The translations under genes and the position numbers were made by a program. From Bryobacterales bacterium (GTDB lineage: Bacteria > Acidobacteriota > Terriglobia > Bryobacterales > UBA6623): 64,000 nucleotides of DNA. Below the pieces are notes generated by a model. The model made no database searches. It was given only the letters and a program-made list of their open reading frames with translations, and was not told where the DNA came from. The stretch covers positions 1 through 64,000 of the forward strand of contig JAPOOG010000071.1 in NCBI GenBank assembly GCA_026713545.1, written 5' to 3'. Positions 19,933-51,855 of the stretch are shown piece by piece (position 1 is the first letter of the stretch; each line of letters starts with the position of its first letter).

Positions 19933-21416
19933 TCAGGCCAAAACCGGTTTGACGACGCTCGCGGGGTCGACTCCGGTGAGCCGTTTGTCGAGGCCCTGGT
20001 GGCGGAAGGTGAAACGCTCGTGGTCGATGCCGAACAGGTGCAGAATGGTTGCCTGCAGATCGCGCACGTGGACCGGATCGCGAACGATGTTGTAGGAGAA
20101 AACGTCCGTTTCGCCGTGGACGACGCGGCCCCTGTTGCCGCCGCCGCCCCACCACATGCTGAAGCAACGAGGATGGTGGTCGCGGCCATAGGTCTGCTCG
20201 GTGAGCTTGCCCTGGCAGTAGACGGTGCGGCCGAATTCGCCGCCCCAGATGATGAGCGTCTCGTCGAGCAAGCCGCGTTGCTTGAGATCCTGGACGAGGG
20301 CCCAAGCGCCCTGATCCACATCTTTGCATTGACTGGGCAGGACCTGCGGCAACCGCCCGTGGACATCCCAGCCGCGGTGATAGATCTGCACGAAGCGCAC
20401 GTCGCGCTCGACGAGGCGGCGCGCCATCAGGCAGGTGTGGGCGAAAGTGCCCGGCGAGCGCACGTCATCTCCGTACATCTTGAAAGTGGCCTCGGATTCC
20501 CTGGTGAGGTCGGTAAGCTCGGGCACCGAGGATTGCATGCGGAAAGCCATCTCGTACTGCTCGAGGCGGGCGAGCGTCTCGGGGTCGCCGATTTTTTCAT
20601 GGCGCACGCGGTTCATTTCGCCGAGCGAGTCGAGCATGCGGCGACGGATTTGAGGCGGCACGCCCTCGGGATTGTTGATGTAGAGCACCGGGTCAGATCC
20701 GGAGCGCAGGGCGACGCCGGCGTATTCCGACGAGAGGAAACCGGAACTCCACAAGCGCGCCGAGATGGCCTGAACGCCAGCCTTGGGGTGCGAGTGGCTG
20801 GCTTTGAGGACGACGAAAGTGGGCAGATCGCGGTTCATGCTGCCCAGACCGTAGGTGATCCATGAACCGATGCAGGGCCGTTCGGGGACCTGGCGGCCGG
20901 TTTGGATGAAGGTGATCGCGGGCTCGTGGTTGATCGCCTCGGTGTGCAAGGAGCGGATGACGGCGACGTCGTCGGCCATGCGCGCGGTGTAGGGCATCAA
21001 CTCGGAGATCCAGGTTCCGCTCCGGCCGTGTTGCCGGAACGCGAACTTCGACGGCACGATCGGGAAACGGTCCTGGCTGGAGGTCATGGTGGTGAGGCGC
21101 TGACCCTGGCGGACGGAATCGGGAAGATCCTTGTCATACCAGTCGTTCATGACCGGCTTGTAGTCAAACATCTCCATCTGGGGCGGCGCGCCGACCATAT
21201 GCAAGTAGATGGCCCGGGTGGCTTTGGGAGCGAAGTGAGGCAAGGAGGGGAGGCCGGCCGTGGCACCGATCTTCGCGGCAGCCTGGGCATCCCGGCCCAT
21301 GAGCGAGGCAAGAGCGAGAGCGCCAAGACCGCGCGCGCCGCGGCCGAAGAACTGGCGGCGGGTTTCGATGCGAACCGCTTCATCACAAAGGTTGTCGGGC
21401 AACAAACGGTGAGCGC

Positions 21417-21420
<4 letters not shown>
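19933..21420 (-). CDS. DUF1501 protein, second copy
   Basis: The 495-residue product has an atypical leader with an internal ETRRQFFGRGARGLGALALA stretch (residues about 20-40), consistent with Tat export. DUF1501 motifs follow: YLHMVGAPPQMEMFDYKP near residue 75, RRLVERDVRFVQIYHRGWD near 340, and LIIWGGEFGRT near 395. The reaction is unknown. The ATG overlaps the stop of the DUF1553 gene as ATGA, so the pair is translationally coupled. Its C-terminus runs up to the repeat block at 19702-19932. Confidence 0.9.
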
Positions 21421-24644
<3,224 letters not shown>

Positions 24645-24787
24645 TTCTCTGTTAACAATCCTTGAACGATGTTCCCGCCTACCTATTCTATTCCCGTTGT
24701 CCACTGCAAGGGAACAGCGGGCATGAGGGTGAGGGGACAGAAGCCATCCCAATCGCGGAAACGCCGGATCAGAGTCCGCCGGGCGTT

Positions 24788-27208: not shown

Positions 27209-29095
27209 TCAGTTCTTGACCATCCAGCCGCGGTCCCAGGGTTGGGCCAGAGTCGGCTGGTTGACGTAGCGCTGCATCTTGAACTCGAGGCGGTCGCCGG
27301 CGCCGGGTTCGAGGCGAACGGTGACATAGGCGTGATCGATGGGAGTCGTCTCGCCGCCGACCGTCACGCTGTCGAACTGATGCTCGCCGTAGCCGCCGGC
27401 TTGCACCATCACGGTTCGGGTGTGGGCCTGGCTGGTGTTCACCAGCGTGACCGAGACCGAGTCGGCAGTGAGCTTGTCCACGAGCGCCGCCACGTCCTTG
27501 GGCGGACCGGAGCGCCGTTCGACGGGGTCGAAGTAGCGCAGCCGGCTGTGCAGGGTCCAGAGTTTGCCGTTCGAAAAATAGCCGCCGAGCATGAGTTGGG
27601 TGAGAACGTCGGTTTGCGCCGGAGTGAACCCGAGGAGCCAATCGGCCAGGCGGGTGTCGGGTGACGTCGGGTCGGTGCGAATCTGGTGCAGATTATCGCG
27701 CAGCCGGTCGAAGGCTCCTTGCAGCGCTGTCTCCGGATGGCCGGGATTCCTGCCTTCCAGGAAGCCGATCCATCCCTCTTTGGGAATCCGCTCCAGGTCC
27801 CGGCGGTCCATCGACCAAAGGTAGATTTCGGTCAGCCGATCGTGGTGCAGCCGTGGCTCCCACAGGTACCACTCGGCATCTCCCTTGTACTTGTAGCCCT
27901 TGGGGTCGCCGTACATTTGCGGGATGAGCGTCCGGCCGTTCTCGACGCGTGCGTGCTCGTAGAACTTATCCATCTGCGTGCGAAGAGCATCGATGTACTT
28001 CTTGTCGCCCGTCAGAAGGTAGGCCGTGCTGAAACCCGGCCAGGGTCCCACCGGGAAGTAGTTGCGATGGGCGATCTGCTCGATTTCACCGTCGAAAATG
28101 GTGAAGTTCCAGCCGTAGGTGCTTTTCCACCATTGGCCGTTGAAGTTGGAGCCCGGCACTCCGTCGAGCCCGACCGTGGACGGGATCATGCCGCCCGTCT
28201 GCTGCGTGCGATCGAGCCAGGCATCCATGTATTCGAGCACCCAATCGCGGTACTTGTTCTCGTGGTCAAGCATGTAGGCGTTCAGGCCCAGGATCGCCGT
28301 GCCCATGTTCAACCAACTGTCTCCGACGCTGTCGACGTACTCGGTGCAGTGGGCCAGCATCTTGTCGTAGACGGACATGAGGTCGAGCATCTTGTTGCGG
28401 CGCTGCGGGCTGTGCAGGATATGGAACATCCCCGGCACGGGGTCGCCGACCCAGTCGTACACGGTGGCCTTGTGCATCATCGGCCCCTTGCTGCCGTTCC
28501 AGATCGAGCGGATGACCTTGTGCTTCGGGTCGTAGTTCGGCGCGGACGGGTCCTCGTTCATGTAGAGGCCGGCAAAGCGCTTCGTGCGAATACGGAACTT
28601 CTCGTCAAGCGGGTCTGCGAGGCCCATCATCGTGAAGCCGCGGATGCCTTCTCCGGTGTGGAAGAAGTCGGACATCGTGATGAACTCGTTGTGGTATGCG
28701 CCGTGCTCGGCGATCTTGGTCTTCGTGGTGCGGAGTTCCTTGTACTGCATCAAGTGGCCTTCGAGACCTTTTTTGTAGATGTCGAGAACCTTGTCGCGGC
28801 CACCCAGGGCGTGGAGGAGAGTCCAGTTGTAGTAGGTCTCGATGGCGTCGTCGGGGCCGTCGAGCGAGCCCCAGCGAATGGTGTGCAAGAGGTAGCCGCG
28901 CTCGTCAATGTACTTGTCGGCGAAGATCTCGATGGCTTCCGAGTTGGCGTCCAGCAGTTGGCGCTCCATCAACGCCCATGCCGGCGGCGCTATGGGGTTG
29001 TCAACGACAATGGTGAGGTCCTTGGCGGGGATCGATGCTCCCAGGCAAAGCGCCATGGCGGTAATCAGGGCGGCCTGGCGGACGGAACGGGGCAT
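27209..29095 (-). CDS. Secreted protein, likely alpha/alpha-barrel fold
   Basis: The ATG at 29095 is preceded by AGGAGG at a good distance and gives a signal peptide (MPRSVRQAALITAMALCLGA), so the long upstream frame is rejected. The 628-residue mature protein is rich in helical, tryptophan- and tyrosine-containing segments (DAIETYYNWTLLHALGG, GDSWLNMGTAILGLNAYML, YFPVGPWPGFSTAYLLTG) reminiscent of six-hairpin glycosidases and polysaccharide lyases. The C-terminal 130 residues look like a beta-sandwich. I do not recognise a named family. It is divergent from the C4 acid sugar kinase gene, which suggests a link between polymer breakdown and sugar-acid use. Confidence 0.7.
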   Translation of the reverse strand: MPRSVRQAALITAMALCLGASIPAKDLTIVVDNPIAPPAWALMERQLLDANSEAIEIFADKYIDERGYLLHTIRWGSLDGPDDAIETYYNWTLLHALGGRDKVLDIYKKGLEGHLMQYKELRTTKTKIAEHGAYHNEFITMSDFFHTGEGIRGFTMMGLADPLDEKFRIRTKRFAGLYMNEDPSAPNYDPKHKVIRSIWNGSKGPMMHKATVYDWVGDPVPGMFHILHSPQRRNKMLDLMSVYDKMLAHCTEYVDSVGDSWLNMGTAILGLNAYMLDHENKYRDWVLEYMDAWLDRTQQTGGMIPSTVGLDGVPGSNFNGQWWKSTYGWNFTIFDGEIEQIAHRNYFPVGPWPGFSTAYLLTGDKKYIDALRTQMDKFYEHARVENGRTLIPQMYGDPKGYKYKGDAEWYLWEPRLHHDRLTEIYLWSMDRRDLERIPKEGWIGFLEGRNPGHPETALQGAFDRLRDNLHQIRTDPTSPDTRLADWLLGFTPAQTDVLTQLMLGGYFSNGKLWTLHSRLRYFDPVERRSGPPKDVAALVDKLTADSVSVTLVNTSQAHTRTVMVQAGGYGEHQFDSVTVGGETTPIDHAYVTVRLEPGAGDRLEFKMQRYVNQPTLAQPWDRGWMVKN

Positions 29096-29291
29096 GGGGA
29101 TACCTCCTGCTTGAAAAACGAAGTGTTTCATTGTACATGCGGTGGGTTGCTCGCCGAGAAGGGGTAAGCGGAAAGCCCGGCAGCTCGCGCTTTCACATGC
29201 TGTAAAAAAACTCTTGAATACCGCAGAACCGTAAACCGTCCGGTAATTTCCGGGCACGCTGTTAGAGTGGGGAACCTGGAGGTCGGTGGGG
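29096..29291. promoter_or_regulatory. Divergent promoter region
   Basis: This 196-base gap separates the divergent alpha/alpha-barrel gene and the C4 acid sugar operon and should carry both promoters. The clear signals are ribosome-binding sites: AGGAGG before 29095 on minus, and TGGAGG (29277-29282) before 29292 on plus. No convincing operator palindrome is seen. Confidence 0.5.
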
Positions 29292-30350
29292 ATGGGAACG
29301 GCGTCGCAACTGCGGTGGGGGATGATCGCGGATGATCTGACAGGGGCCTGTGATGCAGGTGCGGCGTTTGCATTGCAGGGGTTCGAGACTCGCGTGCTGC
29401 TGGGGCCGGGTTCTGAGGTGGTAAAGGAAGCCGAGTTGACGGTCGTTTCCACCGACAGCCGAGACGATGCGGCCGACGACGCGGCGGAAAAAGCCGCTGC
29501 CGCCTGCCGATGGATGAGGGAACGAAATATCACCGTTCTCTTCAAGAAGATCGATTCGGTATTGCGGGGGAACATCGAAGCCGAAGTGGCAGCCGTGATG
29601 AACGCCTGGGGTTTCGGGTCGACGGTATTGACTCCCGCGTTTCCGGCGATGGGGCGGACGGTTCGGCAGGGCGCATTGCGCGTCTTCGGGGAGCAGCCGG
29701 ATTACGGACCGGATCTGGAAACGATGTTCCTTTCGCGAGCAACCGTTTCGGTTGAGGACGCCGAGACGGACGAAGATCTCGCGGCGATCGCGGAAGCCGC
29801 GTTGGCTCGGAACCCGGTCCCGCTGTTGGCGGGATCGGGCGGTCTGGCAGGCCCGGCGGCGAGGACATTGGCCAGACGGTGCGGCAAGCCGGCGCCTGAT
29901 GATGCATCCGGTACGTCGTTTTCGGCCGGGCCTCCGAAGTCTTCGTTGCCGATCTGGCTGGTGATCGGTTCACGGCATTCCTCAACGATGGCTCAACTTG
30001 CCTACCTGGAGGACAAGGGGCTTTTCAGCGGCGCCGCTGAGCTTGTCCTGCTTCAGGTGCCCTTGGAGTCGTTCGATGAGAACGCCGTGCGGCCCGCCGC
30101 CGAGGCCGTCCGACGCGGTATGGTGGGAGCTTTGGTGCTGAGCGGCGGAGACACGGCTCGACTGCTTTGCAGCGCACTGGCGGCGGACGCCATTCACCTT
30201 GGCGGCGAAGTCCTGCCGGGAATCCCCTGGGGGCGGCTGGAAGGCGGACCGGCCAATGGAACGACCGTCGTGACGAAATCGGGCGGCTTCGGCGGACCCG
30301 ACTTGTTGCTTCGAGTCGTCGATTCGCTCAAGGAGAAGGAACAGGCATGA
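29292..30350 (+). CDS. Four-carbon acid sugar kinase (DUF1537/OtnK family)
   Basis: The 352-residue product has the OtnK/DUF1537 architecture: N-terminal substrate domain (MIADDLTGACDAGAAFA near residue 10, KKIDSVLRGNIEAE near 90) and C-terminal nucleotide domain (GALVLSGGDTARLL near 280, GGPANGTTVVTKSGGFG near 325). Characterised members phosphorylate D-threonate, D-erythronate or L-threonate at C4. The ATG at 29292 follows TGGAGG; a GTG at 29286 is the alternative. The stop overlaps the start of the PdxA-like gene (ATGA). No dehydrogenase or isomerase of the erythronate or L-threonate routes is adjacent, so the simplest match is the D-threonate pathway (DtnK). Confidence 0.88.
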   Translation: MGTASQLRWGMIADDLTGACDAGAAFALQGFETRVLLGPGSEVVKEAELTVVSTDSRDDAADDAAEKAAAACRWMRERNITVLFKKIDSVLRGNIEAEVAAVMNAWGFGSTVLTPAFPAMGRTVRQGALRVFGEQPDYGPDLETMFLSRATVSVEDAETDEDLAAIAEAALARNPVPLLAGSGGLAGPAARTLARRCGKPAPDDASGTSFSAGPPKSSLPIWLVIGSRHSSTMAQLAYLEDKGLFSGAAELVLLQVPLESFDENAVRPAAEAVRRGMVGALVLSGGDTARLLCSALAADAIHLGGEVLPGIPWGRLEGGPANGTTVVTKSGGFGGPDLLLRVVDSLKEKEQA

Positions 30351-31309
30351 AGCCGACACTCGCGGTCACGATGGGTGACCCGGCCGGTGTGGGCGCCGAG
30401 GTTGTGGTCAAGGCTCTGGCCGACCCGCAGACCGCGGGCCTTGCGAGTTGGCGCATCGTGGGCGATGAGAGCGTCCTCGAGAGCGCCCGCCGAATCACGG
30501 GTCTGGGGCCGCCGGCCGGGGTCGAAATCGTGAATCCCGGACGGGTTTTCTCGGAAGCGCCGCCATTCGGCGAGTTGAGCGTGGAGTGCGGTGAGGCGGC
30601 AGTCGCCTACATCAAGGGCGCGACCGATCTCTGCCTGCAAGGAGAGGCCAATGCGATGGTCACCGCACCCGTTAACAAAGAGGCCGTGACGATGAGCGGC
30701 ATGGCGTTCACCGGGCACACCGAGTACATCGCCGAGCTTTGCGGCGTGGAAGATACGCGGATGCTGCTCGCTAGCGAGCGGCTGCGCGTGGTGCATGTCT
30801 CGACGCATCTGTCGCTGCGCCGCGCTTGCGATTTGGATCAGGGACGCATACTGCGCACGATCGAGTTGGGTAACGAGACGGCTCTTGCGCTGGGGATCGC
30901 AAAGCCTCGAATCGCCGTATGCGGACTGAACCCTCACGCGGGGGAGCATGGGCTCTTCGGCGATGAAGACGCCGAGCGGATCGTTCCCGCGATTGCGGCG
31001 GCGCAAGACAAAGGCATCGACTGCATGGGGCCGCTGCCGGCCGACACGGTTTTCCTCAAAGCCGTCCGGGGACACTATGACCTGGTCGTCGCGATGTATC
31101 ACGATCAAGGGCACATTCCCATGAAGCTGCTCGACTTCGAGCACACGGTGAATATCTCACTCGGCCTGCCCATCATACGAACATCGGTGGACCACGGGAC
31201 GGCTTTCGACATCGCGGGCAAGAACCTTGCGGACCCCACGAACATGAAGGCGGCGATTCGTCTCGCCTGCAGGATGGCCCGACAGAAGGCATCGCCCGCT
31301 ACGGTCTGA
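30347..31309 (+). CDS. pdxA2: PdxA2-like 4-phospho-sugar acid dehydrogenase
   Basis: The 320-residue protein begins MKPTLAVTMGDPAGVGAEVV, typical of PdxA. It has the metal-binding histidines in FTGHTEYIAELCG, VHVSTHLSLRRA and MYHDQGHIPMKLL, and the substrate segment CGLNPHAGEHGLFG. PdxA makes pyridoxine precursors, but PdxA2 paralogues next to OtnK-type kinases oxidise and decarboxylate 4-phospho-D-threonate or -erythronate to dihydroxyacetone phosphate. The coupled ATGA junction with the kinase gene favours PdxA2. The longer frame from 30167 would overlap the kinase and is rejected. Confidence 0.88.
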   Translation: MKPTLAVTMGDPAGVGAEVVVKALADPQTAGLASWRIVGDESVLESARRITGLGPPAGVEIVNPGRVFSEAPPFGELSVECGEAAVAYIKGATDLCLQGEANAMVTAPVNKEAVTMSGMAFTGHTEYIAELCGVEDTRMLLASERLRVVHVSTHLSLRRACDLDQGRILRTIELGNETALALGIAKPRIAVCGLNPHAGEHGLFGDEDAERIVPAIAAAQDKGIDCMGPLPADTVFLKAVRGHYDLVVAMYHDQGHIPMKLLDFEHTVNISLGLPIIRTSVDHGTAFDIAGKNLADPTNMKAAIRLACRMARQKASPATV

Positions 31310-31378: not shown

Positions 31379-32392
31379 TCACCTGCACCGACGCCGGGCG
31401 TAGCTGTGACGGAACTCCCGGGTCCGGACGAAGACCGGGGGCAAGGGCCGGCCGTTGGGGATGGTGAGCCAGAGCCGCATCATGTGGCGGCGGCGAGCCG
31501 GATCATCGTGGTCTTCAAATGAAGTTCGGCAGTGCAAGACGTCGTAGTTGCTCGCCGCGAGGACATCCCCGGGCTGCATGTCGAACTCGAAGCACATGCC
31601 GGGCTCGGCGCAGATTTCGTCGAACAGGTCGAGGGCTTCGATCTGCCGTTTGCTCAGCGGCGGCACTTCCGGAAAGCGCTGCGCAAGCTCGATATAGAAC
31701 CGCTTGTGGAGCGTGCTGAGGCGGTTTTCATGATAGTTGTAGATCGGCACGCACTGAGCCCGCGGCTCTCCTTCGTTCTGCTGGCCGCGGACATCGAAGT
31801 AGAAGGGCCGCTGAAGAATCTCGGCCAACTCGGGGCTACGGTTCACCATCTCGTTGAAAACAGCGGCCGAGCTTACGAGGCGGCTGCTGCCGCCGCTCTT
31901 GGCGTTCCGCACGCAGAGCAACAGGAAGATATCAGAGCCATCGTTGTGAAAAGGGATGTCCTGGTTGGTCTGGTATTTGCGGATGTCGTCCTGGGAGAGA
32001 TCCCGGCCGGTGTCGCGGACATGGTGAAGCAGGTTGCCAGCCACGTCCTGCGGTTCGGGTGTGCCGAGATGGGTGCCGAGACCCCAGAAGAGTGTCGCGA
32101 TGTCGTTGTCGGAGCAGCCGTCCACAGGCAGGCCTCGAATCAAGGCAAAGCCTCGCCCACCTTCCAGGTCGTCCAGCAATTGCTTCCGCATGGCGGCGAA
32201 CGAGGGCAAGGGGAAGTGGCGCGGCTCGATCTGAAACATCTGCCGACCCGACTCACAGACGCCGTCGAGGGCGGCCCTGAGTTCGTTGACGACGGACGGA
32301 TGCAGCGTATAAAGCCATGACCGGTCGGGCTCCCACTCGGAGCCTCGCCAGGCAGCCGGAATATCGAGGGTGTGATTGAGGATCTGCGGCAT
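31379..32392 (-). CDS. TauD/TfdA-family dioxygenase
   Basis: The 337-residue protein matches Fe(II)/2-oxoglutarate dioxygenases of the TauD/TfdA family. The iron ligands His and Asp are in IPFHNDGSDIFL (about residue 147), the distal histidine is in NYDVLHCRTSFEDH (about 290), and the conserved arginine is in RRRHMMRLWLT. FALIRGLPVD near residue 80 is the usual N-terminal strand. The substrate is unknown. It lies convergent to the PdxA2 gene and about 130 bases beyond the stop of the heme/HEAT gene on the same strand. Confidence 0.85.
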   Translation of the reverse strand: MPQILNHTLDIPAAWRGSEWEPDRSWLYTLHPSVVNELRAALDGVCESGRQMFQIEPRHFPLPSFAAMRKQLLDDLEGGRGFALIRGLPVDGCSDNDIATLFWGLGTHLGTPEPQDVAGNLLHHVRDTGRDLSQDDIRKYQTNQDIPFHNDGSDIFLLLCVRNAKSGGSSRLVSSAAVFNEMVNRSPELAEILQRPFYFDVRGQQNEGEPRAQCVPIYNYHENRLSTLHKRFYIELAQRFPEVPPLSKRQIEALDLFDEICAEPGMCFEFDMQPGDVLAASNYDVLHCRTSFEDHDDPARRRHMMRLWLTIPNGRPLPPVFVRTREFRHSYARRRCR

Positions 32393-39066: not shown

Positions 39067-40083
39067 CTATCGACCTTCCATCTGATCGGCTGTCAACTCG
39101 TTCAGCAGTGTCTTTCCTGACGAATAGCGGTCCAGGTTTTGGAGAAAGATATCCCAGATTCGGCTAACAAAGAACGGGCTGAGGCTCGACCCCGATATGT
39201 GCGGCGTCATGATCACGTTCGGCATTTTCCAAAGCGGATGTTCGGAGGGCATTGGATATTCGTAGTGGGTGTCGAGCGCCGCGCCTGCGATCCAGCCTTC
39301 CCGCAATGCTTGTAGCAGAGCCGGCTGGCGAATGAGCGGTCCCCGTGCAGGATTGAGCACAAAGGCCGTTCGCGGCAATGTTCGCAGCTCCTGTTGGCCG
39401 ACGATGCCTTCCGTGCTGTGAGTGAGAGGCAGCGTAAGCACCAGAAAATCGAGGTCCGAGAGGAACTTCGTTTGCTCCTCTTTGAGGTAAACCCGGTCCG
39501 GCAACAGCGCTTCCGGGTCACCCGATCCGGGCACGCAGTAGACATCTCCCATGGGACCGATCCCTCGGCGGGAGAGGATATGAACCCTCATTCCCATGGT
39601 CTTCGCCAGACGCGCCGTCTCGCGTCCAATGCCGCCGTAACCCCAAATACCCACGGTCAGGCCGCGGACCTCACGTTGGAATCGAGCCGATTGGTCCCAC
39701 AACCCGGCGCCCTGATTGCGAATCATCTGCCGCAGGTCTCGCGCCAGATTGACCATCATCGCGATGTTCCACTCCGCAATGGGAATGTCGAAGCAGCCCC
39801 GACCATTGCTGGCGCGGACCCCTTTCCCGCTCAGGCCCAGGCCGTACAACTGGTTGCAGCCTGCCGACGTGATCTGGATCCACCGGAGGCTGGCCATCTC
39901 GGAAAAGTTCGCCGGGGGAAACGTGCATGCCAGGATCTCGATCGGCCGAAGCAAGGCCGGGGGCAAGGGGCGGACACGCTCCTCCGGCTCGACGAATTCC
40001 AGGTGCACGTTGGGGATACCCCGCAATCTGGCCCGCGCCGCTTCGTCAACCGGGATATCGACCAGGACGTGGATCATGGGCAT
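39067..40083 (-). CDS. NAD-dependent D-2-hydroxyacid dehydrogenase
   Basis: The 338-residue protein has the two-domain structure of the family, with the nucleotide-binding signature TVGIWGYGGIGRETA near residue 145 and the conserved arginine in VLNPARGPLI near 250. The usual catalytic glutamate region reads ALDTHYEYPMPSEHPLW and the histidine is in MTPHISGSS near 305. It interconverts 2-oxo and 2-hydroxy acids with NAD(P)H. It lies 29 bases downstream of the enolase-superfamily gene, so the two probably act in one sugar-acid pathway. Confidence 0.85.
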   Translation of the reverse strand: MPMIHVLVDIPVDEAARARLRGIPNVHLEFVEPEERVRPLPPALLRPIEILACTFPPANFSEMASLRWIQITSAGCNQLYGLGLSGKGVRASNGRGCFDIPIAEWNIAMMVNLARDLRQMIRNQGAGLWDQSARFQREVRGLTVGIWGYGGIGRETARLAKTMGMRVHILSRRGIGPMGDVYCVPGSGDPEALLPDRVYLKEEQTKFLSDLDFLVLTLPLTHSTEGIVGQQELRTLPRTAFVLNPARGPLIRQPALLQALREGWIAGAALDTHYEYPMPSEHPLWKMPNVIMTPHISGSSLSPFFVSRIWDIFLQNLDRYSSGKTLLNELTADQMEGR

Positions 40084-50352: not shown

Positions 50353-51855
50353 ATGTCGCCTCTCGACTACGTTGTCATCGCCGTTTACGTGACCGGAGTC
50401 ACGCTTGTCGGGCTGGCCGCGTCCCGGCGCAAGCAGTCGTCCGTCAGCGAGTACTTCCTCGGGAACCGCCGCGTGCCGTGGCTGGCGGCCTCGGCATCGA
50501 TGATCGCCACCGGCATCAGCGCGAAGAGCCTGATCGGTTTGCCGGGGCTCTCGTATACGAAAGACCTCACCTACCTTCAGATGTACCTCGTGCTGCCCCT
50601 GGCGGCTTTGATCGCGGCGACGCTGTTTCTTCCGTTCTACAGCCGCATCAAGATCACCTCCGCGTACGAATACCTGGGGCGGCGCTTCGGTCCGGGGGTG
50701 CAGTCCTACGCGAGCTTGATCTTTCAGATCGAGACGGCACTGATTCTGGGGACGGTCATCGCCGCGCCGAGCCTGGTGATGTCGGAGGCCACGGGCATCT
50801 CGTACAACGCCGCGGTGGCGATCCTGCTGCTGGCCACGCTGCTGTATACGTCCATCGGGGGCATGCGGGCCGTGATCTGGACCGACGTCGTTCAGTTCTT
50901 CGTCTTCGCCGCCGTACCGGCCGGCCTGTTGCTGTACACGGTTTCCACCGCGGAAGGCGGGCTGCCCGCTCTCATCGAAACCGCAGCCGCGCACGACAAG
51001 CTGCGGGCGTTCAATTTCTCTTTCGACTTCACCGCAGAGATCACGTTCTGGGCGGCGCTGGTCAGCATGCTGTTCTGGCACACCGGCAACCAGAGCGTGA
51101 ACCAGGTGTTGATTCAACGCTATATGACGACGCCCTCTCAGAGGGACAGCCGCCGAACGATTCTGCTGAGCAGCGTGGGAATCCTCGGCTTGTGGATCCT
51201 GTTCCTGCTGGTTGGAATCCTGCTTTATTCGCACAACACGATGTATCCGGGAAGCGTCCCGCCGGACACACCGCCGGATCGAGTATTCACGGCCTTCGTC
51301 ATGTCCGTCATGCCGACGGGGCTGAAAGGGGCTTTCATCGCGGCCGCGTTCGCGGCGGGCATGTCGACGCTGAGCTCGATGTTGAACTCGATGGGCACGG
51401 TGACCCTGGTGGACGTGTGGCAACTTCATTTTTCCGACGGCGCGAGCGAGCGGGTCTGGATTCGCCGCGCCCGTCAGTTGACTCTGTTATGGGGTGTGTT
51501 CAGTTTCGTTTCCGCTCTGTTCGTTCTCCGGTTCGGAACCGTCATCACGGCCGGCATCGCACTGGGCAGCATAATCACCGGCGCTCTGTTGGGCATGTTT
51601 CTCATCGGCATCTTTGTCAAGCGGGCCGGCGCGGTCGCAGCGCTGACCGGCTCGATTCTCGGCATGGCCAGCGTCGTGGCCGTCATGGCCGTTTCGGAAA
51701 TCTCGTGGTCGTGGTACTGCGGCATCGGTACGGTCATGACGTTCGTTGCGGGATACGTGAGCAGCTTGTTTGTTCCGGTGAGCATCTGCTCGGACGACCT
51801 ATGCTACGAGGCGCTTCGCGGCTCGGGTGCAACGAGACGGCAAGCCGGAGAGTGA
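50353..51855 (+). CDS. Sodium:solute symporter (SSS family)
   Basis: The 500-residue protein has about 13 hydrophobic segments and SSS family motifs: SEYFLGNRRVPWLAASASMI near residue 35, AYEYLGRRFGPGVQSYASL near 100, and AAFAAGMSTLSSMLNSMGTV near 320, where sodium-site serines lie. It imports a solute with Na+, possibly a sugar acid or sialic-acid-like compound given the neighbouring sialidase genes, but this is inference from context only. It is coupled to the PhyH gene upstream. A sialidase locus starts about 350 bases downstream. Confidence 0.9.
   Translation: MSPLDYVVIAVYVTGVTLVGLAASRRKQSSVSEYFLGNRRVPWLAASASMIATGISAKSLIGLPGLSYTKDLTYLQMYLVLPLAALIAATLFLPFYSRIKITSAYEYLGRRFGPGVQSYASLIFQIETALILGTVIAAPSLVMSEATGISYNAAVAILLLATLLYTSIGGMRAVIWTDVVQFFVFAAVPAGLLLYTVSTAEGGLPALIETAAAHDKLRAFNFSFDFTAEITFWAALVSMLFWHTGNQSVNQVLIQRYMTTPSQRDSRRTILLSSVGILGLWILFLLVGILLYSHNTMYPGSVPPDTPPDRVFTAFVMSVMPTGLKGAFIAAAFAAGMSTLSSMLNSMGTVTLVDVWQLHFSDGASERVWIRRARQLTLLWGVFSFVSALFVLRFGTVITAGIALGSIITGALLGMFLIGIFVKRAGAVAALTGSILGMASVVAVMAVSEISWSWYCGIGTVMTFVAGYVSSLFVPVSICSDDLCYEALRGSGATRRQAGE

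Follow-up and report, generated by a model that had tools for sequence, protein, structure and literature searches.

A DUF1537 kinase/PdxA gene pair of a Bryobacterales bacterium as a probable catabolic operon for four-carbon aldonates

The gene pair and its described counterparts

The combination of a DUF1537 protein with a PdxA protein is reportedly the basis of the D-threonate pathway (DtnK/PdxA2), which Zhang et al. are said to have described in PNAS in 2016. For the D-erythronate kinase DenK, an equal two-gene layout is presumably possible. According to PMC10971088, DenK is a member of the DUF1537 family, the same kinase family as that of the kinase presented here. Our analysis concerned a stretch of 64,000 nucleotides (the window) from a host genome of 5.6 Mb in 170 contigs, in which the following features were of relevance:

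29292-30350, plus strand: four-carbon acid sugar kinase of the DUF1537 family (SBD_N and NBD_C domains), short form, 352 residues (Pfam, PDB, AlphaFold, trees)
30347-31309, plus strand: PdxA-family oxidative decarboxylase, PdxA2-like, 320 residues (Pfam, NCBIfam, PDB, six motifs)
30347-30350, plus strand: ATGA stop/start overlap coupling the kinase and PdxA genes (sequence)
29096-29291, no strand: divergent spacer, 196 bases between the two starts
27209-29095, minus strand: putative secreted protein of 628 residues, with a predicted (alpha/alpha)6-type barrel and a C-terminal beta domain
27209-29095 of the window and contigs C5, C113, C9, and C137 of the host genome (G000): copies of the 628-residue family

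As in DtnK/PdxA2, the kinase gene is followed by an overlapping PdxA gene, and the likeness extends to the side of the tree on which the kinase falls, to the ranking of the kinase models, and to the lack of PdxJ. Compared with the Pantoea pair, however, the window kinase falls short by about 65 residues and lacks the xTEFxxDPxxP loop, and whereas a DeoR-type regulator adjoins the Pantoea genes and an MFS transporter lies a few genes off, neither a transporter nor a regulator was seen among the genes adjoining the window operon that were scanned with Pfam.

We read the pair, with a probability of about three in four, as a two-gene catabolic operon leading from a C4 aldonate to dihydroxyacetone phosphate, and the divergent secreted protein as an independent, multi-copy neighbour. 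The DUF1537 kinase would use ATP to phosphorylate O4 of a four-carbon aldonate, the PdxA2-like enzyme would oxidise C3 with NAD+, and the resulting beta-keto acid would lose CO2, giving dihydroxyacetone phosphate that would enter glycolysis; the two genes are presumably expressed as one operon, and the substrate may be D-threonate, D-erythronate, or both. Three findings favour a catabolic role for the pair: its kinase groups with the D-threonate-kinase side of the family, none of 61 genomes yielded a PdxJ, and all those with a PdxA also have a DUF1537 protein. The operon is of a known kind, well assigned at the family level, and in this respect ordinary.

The sequence-only reading had described ATGA-coupled kinase and PdxA genes with a divergent gene for a 628-residue protein, as was confirmed from sequence and Pfam, and had proposed a D-threonate route to dihydroxyacetone phosphate. 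The route type, two steps catalyzed by a kinase and a PdxA protein, is upheld, with the kinase standing apart from the 3-oxo-tetronate kinase reference and PdxJ missing, but D-threonate in particular is not, given that DenK, a D-erythronate kinase, belongs to the same DUF1537 family. Its observation that no dehydrogenase or isomerase lies next to the pair also holds for the adjoining genes scanned with Pfam (some small open reading frames fell outside the scan); this is consistent with D-threonate, yet no proof of it, again because of the family membership of DenK.

Farther away, the window contains a protein with a D-2-hydroxyacid dehydrogenase domain (39067-40083, minus strand, about 7.8 kb from the pair) and a sodium:solute symporter (50353-51855, plus strand), and both are possible operon partners. 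Two Lar_N matches were present on other contigs of the host genome, and a C2 epimerase from the superfamily of lactate racemase was considered as a source of D-threonate. PMC11770544 concerns 4-deoxy-threonate and 4-deoxy-erythronate, not threonate, and no paper combining “four-carbon acid sugar kinase” with “Acidobacteri” was found in the part of the literature searched. If our reading holds, the Bryobacterales have a minimal route for C4 sugar acids, and a rule for annotating this order suggests itself: where a PdxA protein stands beside a DUF1537 kinase and PdxJ is lacking, catabolism is a likelier role than vitamin B6 synthesis.

Family assignment of the kinase and PdxA

The reading frame of the kinase is open from a GTG at 29286, and the ATG at 29292 is the better start as judged from the sequence; it is preceded by GGAGG at 29278-29282, and the kinase match in the nearest relative (G001) starts at the residue of this ATG. 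The protein exceeded both Pfam cut-offs (SBD_N PF07005, 130.4 bits against 25; NBD_C PF17042, 61.7 against 28.3), its best sequence match in the PDB was 4xfr/4xg0 from Bordetella, and the nearest named relative found, a Bryobacterales metagenome-assembled genome, showed 90% kinase identity. An AlphaFold model (mean pLDDT 87.3), for which 13 kinases of the order had been aligned, matched six DUF1537 entries of the PDB with Z scores of 26.5-35.0, the next match having a Z of only 7.3. The closest were 5dmh (Z 35.0, rmsd 3.2, 328 aligned residues), 3dqq (Z 33.7, rmsd 2.9, 319 aligned), and 1yzy (Z 28.6, rmsd 4.4, 321 aligned), followed by 4xg0, 4xfr, and 4xgj with Z 26.5-28.1 and 300-321 aligned residues at an rmsd of about 15; in the model, it looks as if the two domains were set differently from those of these Bordetella and Pectobacterium entries.

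Passing the cut-offs of both PF04166 (342.9 bits against 27) and TIGR00557 (353.2 against 290.35), the second protein belongs to the PdxA family, and all six conserved PdxA motifs sought in a pattern search were present. It remained below the equivalog cut-off of the D-threonate 4-phosphate dehydrogenase model NF002891 (300.1 against 583 bits), though this PdxA2 model exceeded PRK01909 (300 vs 261 bits), whereas E. coli PdxA gave 220 vs 431 and Pantoea PdxA2 658 vs 236. Naming by models alone is nevertheless indecisive, because three plain-PdxA models outscore the PdxA2 model on the window protein, namely TIGR00557 (353), PRK03743 (320), and PRK05312 (314). The top PDB sequence matches were 4jqp (298 bits), 2hi1 (272), named dehydrogenase 2, and 6e85 (266), which is named a D-threonate 4-phosphate dehydrogenase; of the entries with the plain name 4-hydroxythreonine-4-phosphate dehydrogenase, 6xmy (214) and 1r8k, 1ps7, and 1ps6 (197 each) came next. 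A PdxA tree was built from matches of at least 230 aligned residues, which left out the degraded copies of G024 and G052. Its 36 rows, with three genes appearing twice (L121/L154, L134/L155, L136/L158) and four rows stemming from outside the order, allow no inference, because the long E. coli branch leaves the place of the classical PdxA unsure.

Both proteins are inherited together. Among the 61 genomes, kinase homologues were found in 33, our host included, and PdxA in 31, and all of these 31 also have DUF1537 (Fisher p 2e-15, n=61, uncorrected for relatedness). In 23 of the 31 genomes, the pair lies within 3 kb, while in the other eight the genes are not adjacent; in G019 (L073:3056-5026), kinase and PdxA are even fused into one protein of 657 residues, encoded directly behind a gene for a sugar-acid permease of the KdgT type. 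Kinase and/or PdxA matches in G018, G024, and G052 are fragmented or contain stops, which suggests decay or frameshifts.

Kinase subfamily and alternative roles

All five kinases of order-mates that were tested preferred the NCBIfam model of the D-threonate kinase (139-163 vs 62-98 bits), and the window kinase likewise reached 172.4 bits on it (NF047819) compared with 112.3 on the 3-oxo-tetronate kinase model (NF043035), remaining below the equivalog cut-off of 450 and the cut-off of 350, respectively; the Pantoea kinase passed the D-threonate cut-off (520 bits vs 116 on the other model). A tree of 27 rows showed a split supported by 100/100: on one side stood the Rhizobium OtnK with four of the order's full-length kinases, and on the other the remaining 22 rows, which include the kinase of the window together with its short relatives and the Pantoea sequence. 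The split recurred at 100/100 in a second tree, for which two of the four full-length kinases were exchanged and one row (L080, cut at an internal start in the first tree) was left uncut. Of the 12 full-length loci (L141-L152), L144-L147 entered the first tree and L141, L143, L145, and L147 the second, making six different loci across both, with L142 and L148-L152 in neither; E. coli YgbK was omitted, its annotated end departing from the family. Judged by sequence, the window kinase is thus on the D-threonate-kinase side of the family and apart from the annotated 3-oxo-tetronate kinase, a split resting on one reference per side, the D-threonate-type kinase of Pantoea, whose row is long, and the Rhizobium protein annotated as OtnK.

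The earlier label “OtnK” has therefore to be dropped, the kinase falling outside the OtnK group in both trees. The sequence-only reading had also named what would speak against it, a kinase clustering with a clade that needs a separate dehydrogenase; no such clustering with the 3-oxo-tetronate kinase reference was observed, with one reference for each side.

The alternatives concern the acid that is phosphorylated and the fate of the product. That the kinase is a 3-oxo-tetronate kinase of the OtnK type, serving an L-threonate/D-erythronate aldolase route with the other enzymes encoded elsewhere in the genome, could be argued from the 112 bits on the NCBIfam model; with both trees placing it outside that group at 100/100, a PdxA protein instead of an aldolase as its partner, and a genome search revealing only one DUF1537 gene in the host, we regard this route as very improbable, and the trees led us to reject it. 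That the short kinase has drifted towards another hydroxy acid, whose phosphate PdxA would then convert, is unlikely, but less so: the xTEFxxDPxxP loop of the sugar-binding domain, present in the Pantoea kinase, was found in 8 of the 20 order kinases examined (the degraded L079 of G052 being excluded) and is lost in 12, ours included, and the score lies far below the D-threonate equivalog cut-off. Because 12 of 20 lack this loop of the substrate domain, PdxA-paired kinases of the order may indeed serve a different acid. Against such a change speak the ADD, K-x-DS-x-L-x-G, GG-x-TA, and TK-x-G-x-FG motifs, invariant across all 13 aligned kinases, and the known chemistry of PdxA, limiting the product to a 4-phospho-3-hydroxy acid. 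Recycling of 4-hydroxy-L-threonine into the vitamin B6 pathway by the pair has a precedent, as STM0162, a DUF1537 protein, phosphorylates this compound and PdxA2 is capable of the PdxA reaction, according to PMC10971088 and PMC9997740. However, PdxJ, whose presence in the same genome marks a PdxA protein of the PLP pathway, was found neither in the host nor in any other of the 61 genomes, while the host, the only genome searched for PdxS, has one PdxS beside its one PdxA; because PdxJ is missing and PdxS present, a PdxA product would have no known use here, and the vitamin B6 role was rejected as extremely improbable. Catabolism of D-threonate, D-erythronate, or both consequently remains the preferred reading of the pair.

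On a Salipiger plasmid (L108), a short DUF1537 kinase has an iron-containing alcohol dehydrogenase, rather than PdxA, as its neighbour.

The putative secreted neighbour

The divergent gene starts with an ATG at 29095, with AGGAGG upstream, and the N terminus of its product is signal-like, with a leading hydrophobic stretch, as read from the sequence. The protein had no match in Pfam (E up to 10), in NCBIfam (at 0.01), or among PDB sequences (E up to 1). Modelled with AlphaFold on 24 sequences (mean pLDDT 87.4, pTM 0.89), it resembles, as a predicted helical barrel, the (alpha/alpha)6 carbohydrate enzymes, matching GH88, GH76, and GH127 proteins as well as AGE-type epimerases; unlike these, it is assigned to no Pfam or NCBIfam family, and the identity is 7-14% among the matches listed. 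The best structural match was 1vd5 (Z 14.9, rmsd 5.2, 308 aligned residues), and the best Foldseek E value was 1e-4. As helical models can reach such Z scores by a common arrangement alone, our claim extends only to a fold of the carbohydrate-enzyme type; of the suggested glycan-active secreted protein, the structure prediction thus supports the fold, whereas a family to go with it was lacking in Pfam and NCBIfam.

The family occupies five gene places in the host genome (eight matched stretches) and occurs in 29 of the 61 genomes of the order, the host included, and, in a sample of 297 genomes from across the phylum, in 9. If the reading as a multi-copy secreted family is true, this may perhaps be a new family of glycan-active enzymes of the Acidobacteriota, and these unnamed secreted proteins are worth biochemical attention in their own right. 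These two separate leads, the shortened DUF1537 lineage serving a different acid and the neighbour representing an undescribed multi-copy family of the (alpha/alpha)6 type, are tentative proposals that we consider possible but doubtful.

A closer tie had been proposed as well, with a shared inducer and a polymer yielding the sugar acid, so that kinase, PdxA, and secreted protein would form one regulon in which the secreted enzyme frees the substrate of the pair. The divergent arrangement is indeed kept in G001, where the 51 spacer bases beside the start of the secreted-protein gene are identical, and the predicted fold is of a suitable type. We examined 21 loci, namely the window plus, for 20 of the 32 other kinase-bearing genomes, the kinase surroundings over up to 20 kb. 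The secreted protein, however, stood next to the kinase in only two, our own and that of the congeneric G001, and the third genome belonging to this genus did not show the adjacency. Across the 61 genomes, there was no co-occurrence (16 with both, 17 with the kinase only, 13 with the secreted protein only, 15 with neither; Fisher p 1.0), and the neighbours of the other copies vary, including UvrB, a proton pyrophosphatase, and a protein kinase. The spacer contained no exact inverted repeat of at least 7 bases within 60 bases and no match to a sigma-70-type promoter, although, with a mean of only 0.3 expected by chance in the stretch scanned, the lack of a promoter match carries little weight. 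Because adjacency, co-occurrence, and spacer give nothing in its favour, the shared inducer is unsupported beyond the arrangement and its conservation in G001, and we rejected the common regulon as quite improbable, keeping the secreted protein as an independent neighbour.

Directly downstream of the operon and convergent with it lies a gene for a TauD/TfdA-type dioxygenase (31379-32392, minus strand), which is also found nearby in G001. Planctomycete-type DUF1501 and PSCyt1/PSCyt2/PSD1 proteins, the larger one with a Laminin_G_3 domain, are encoded at 19933-24752 on the minus strand.
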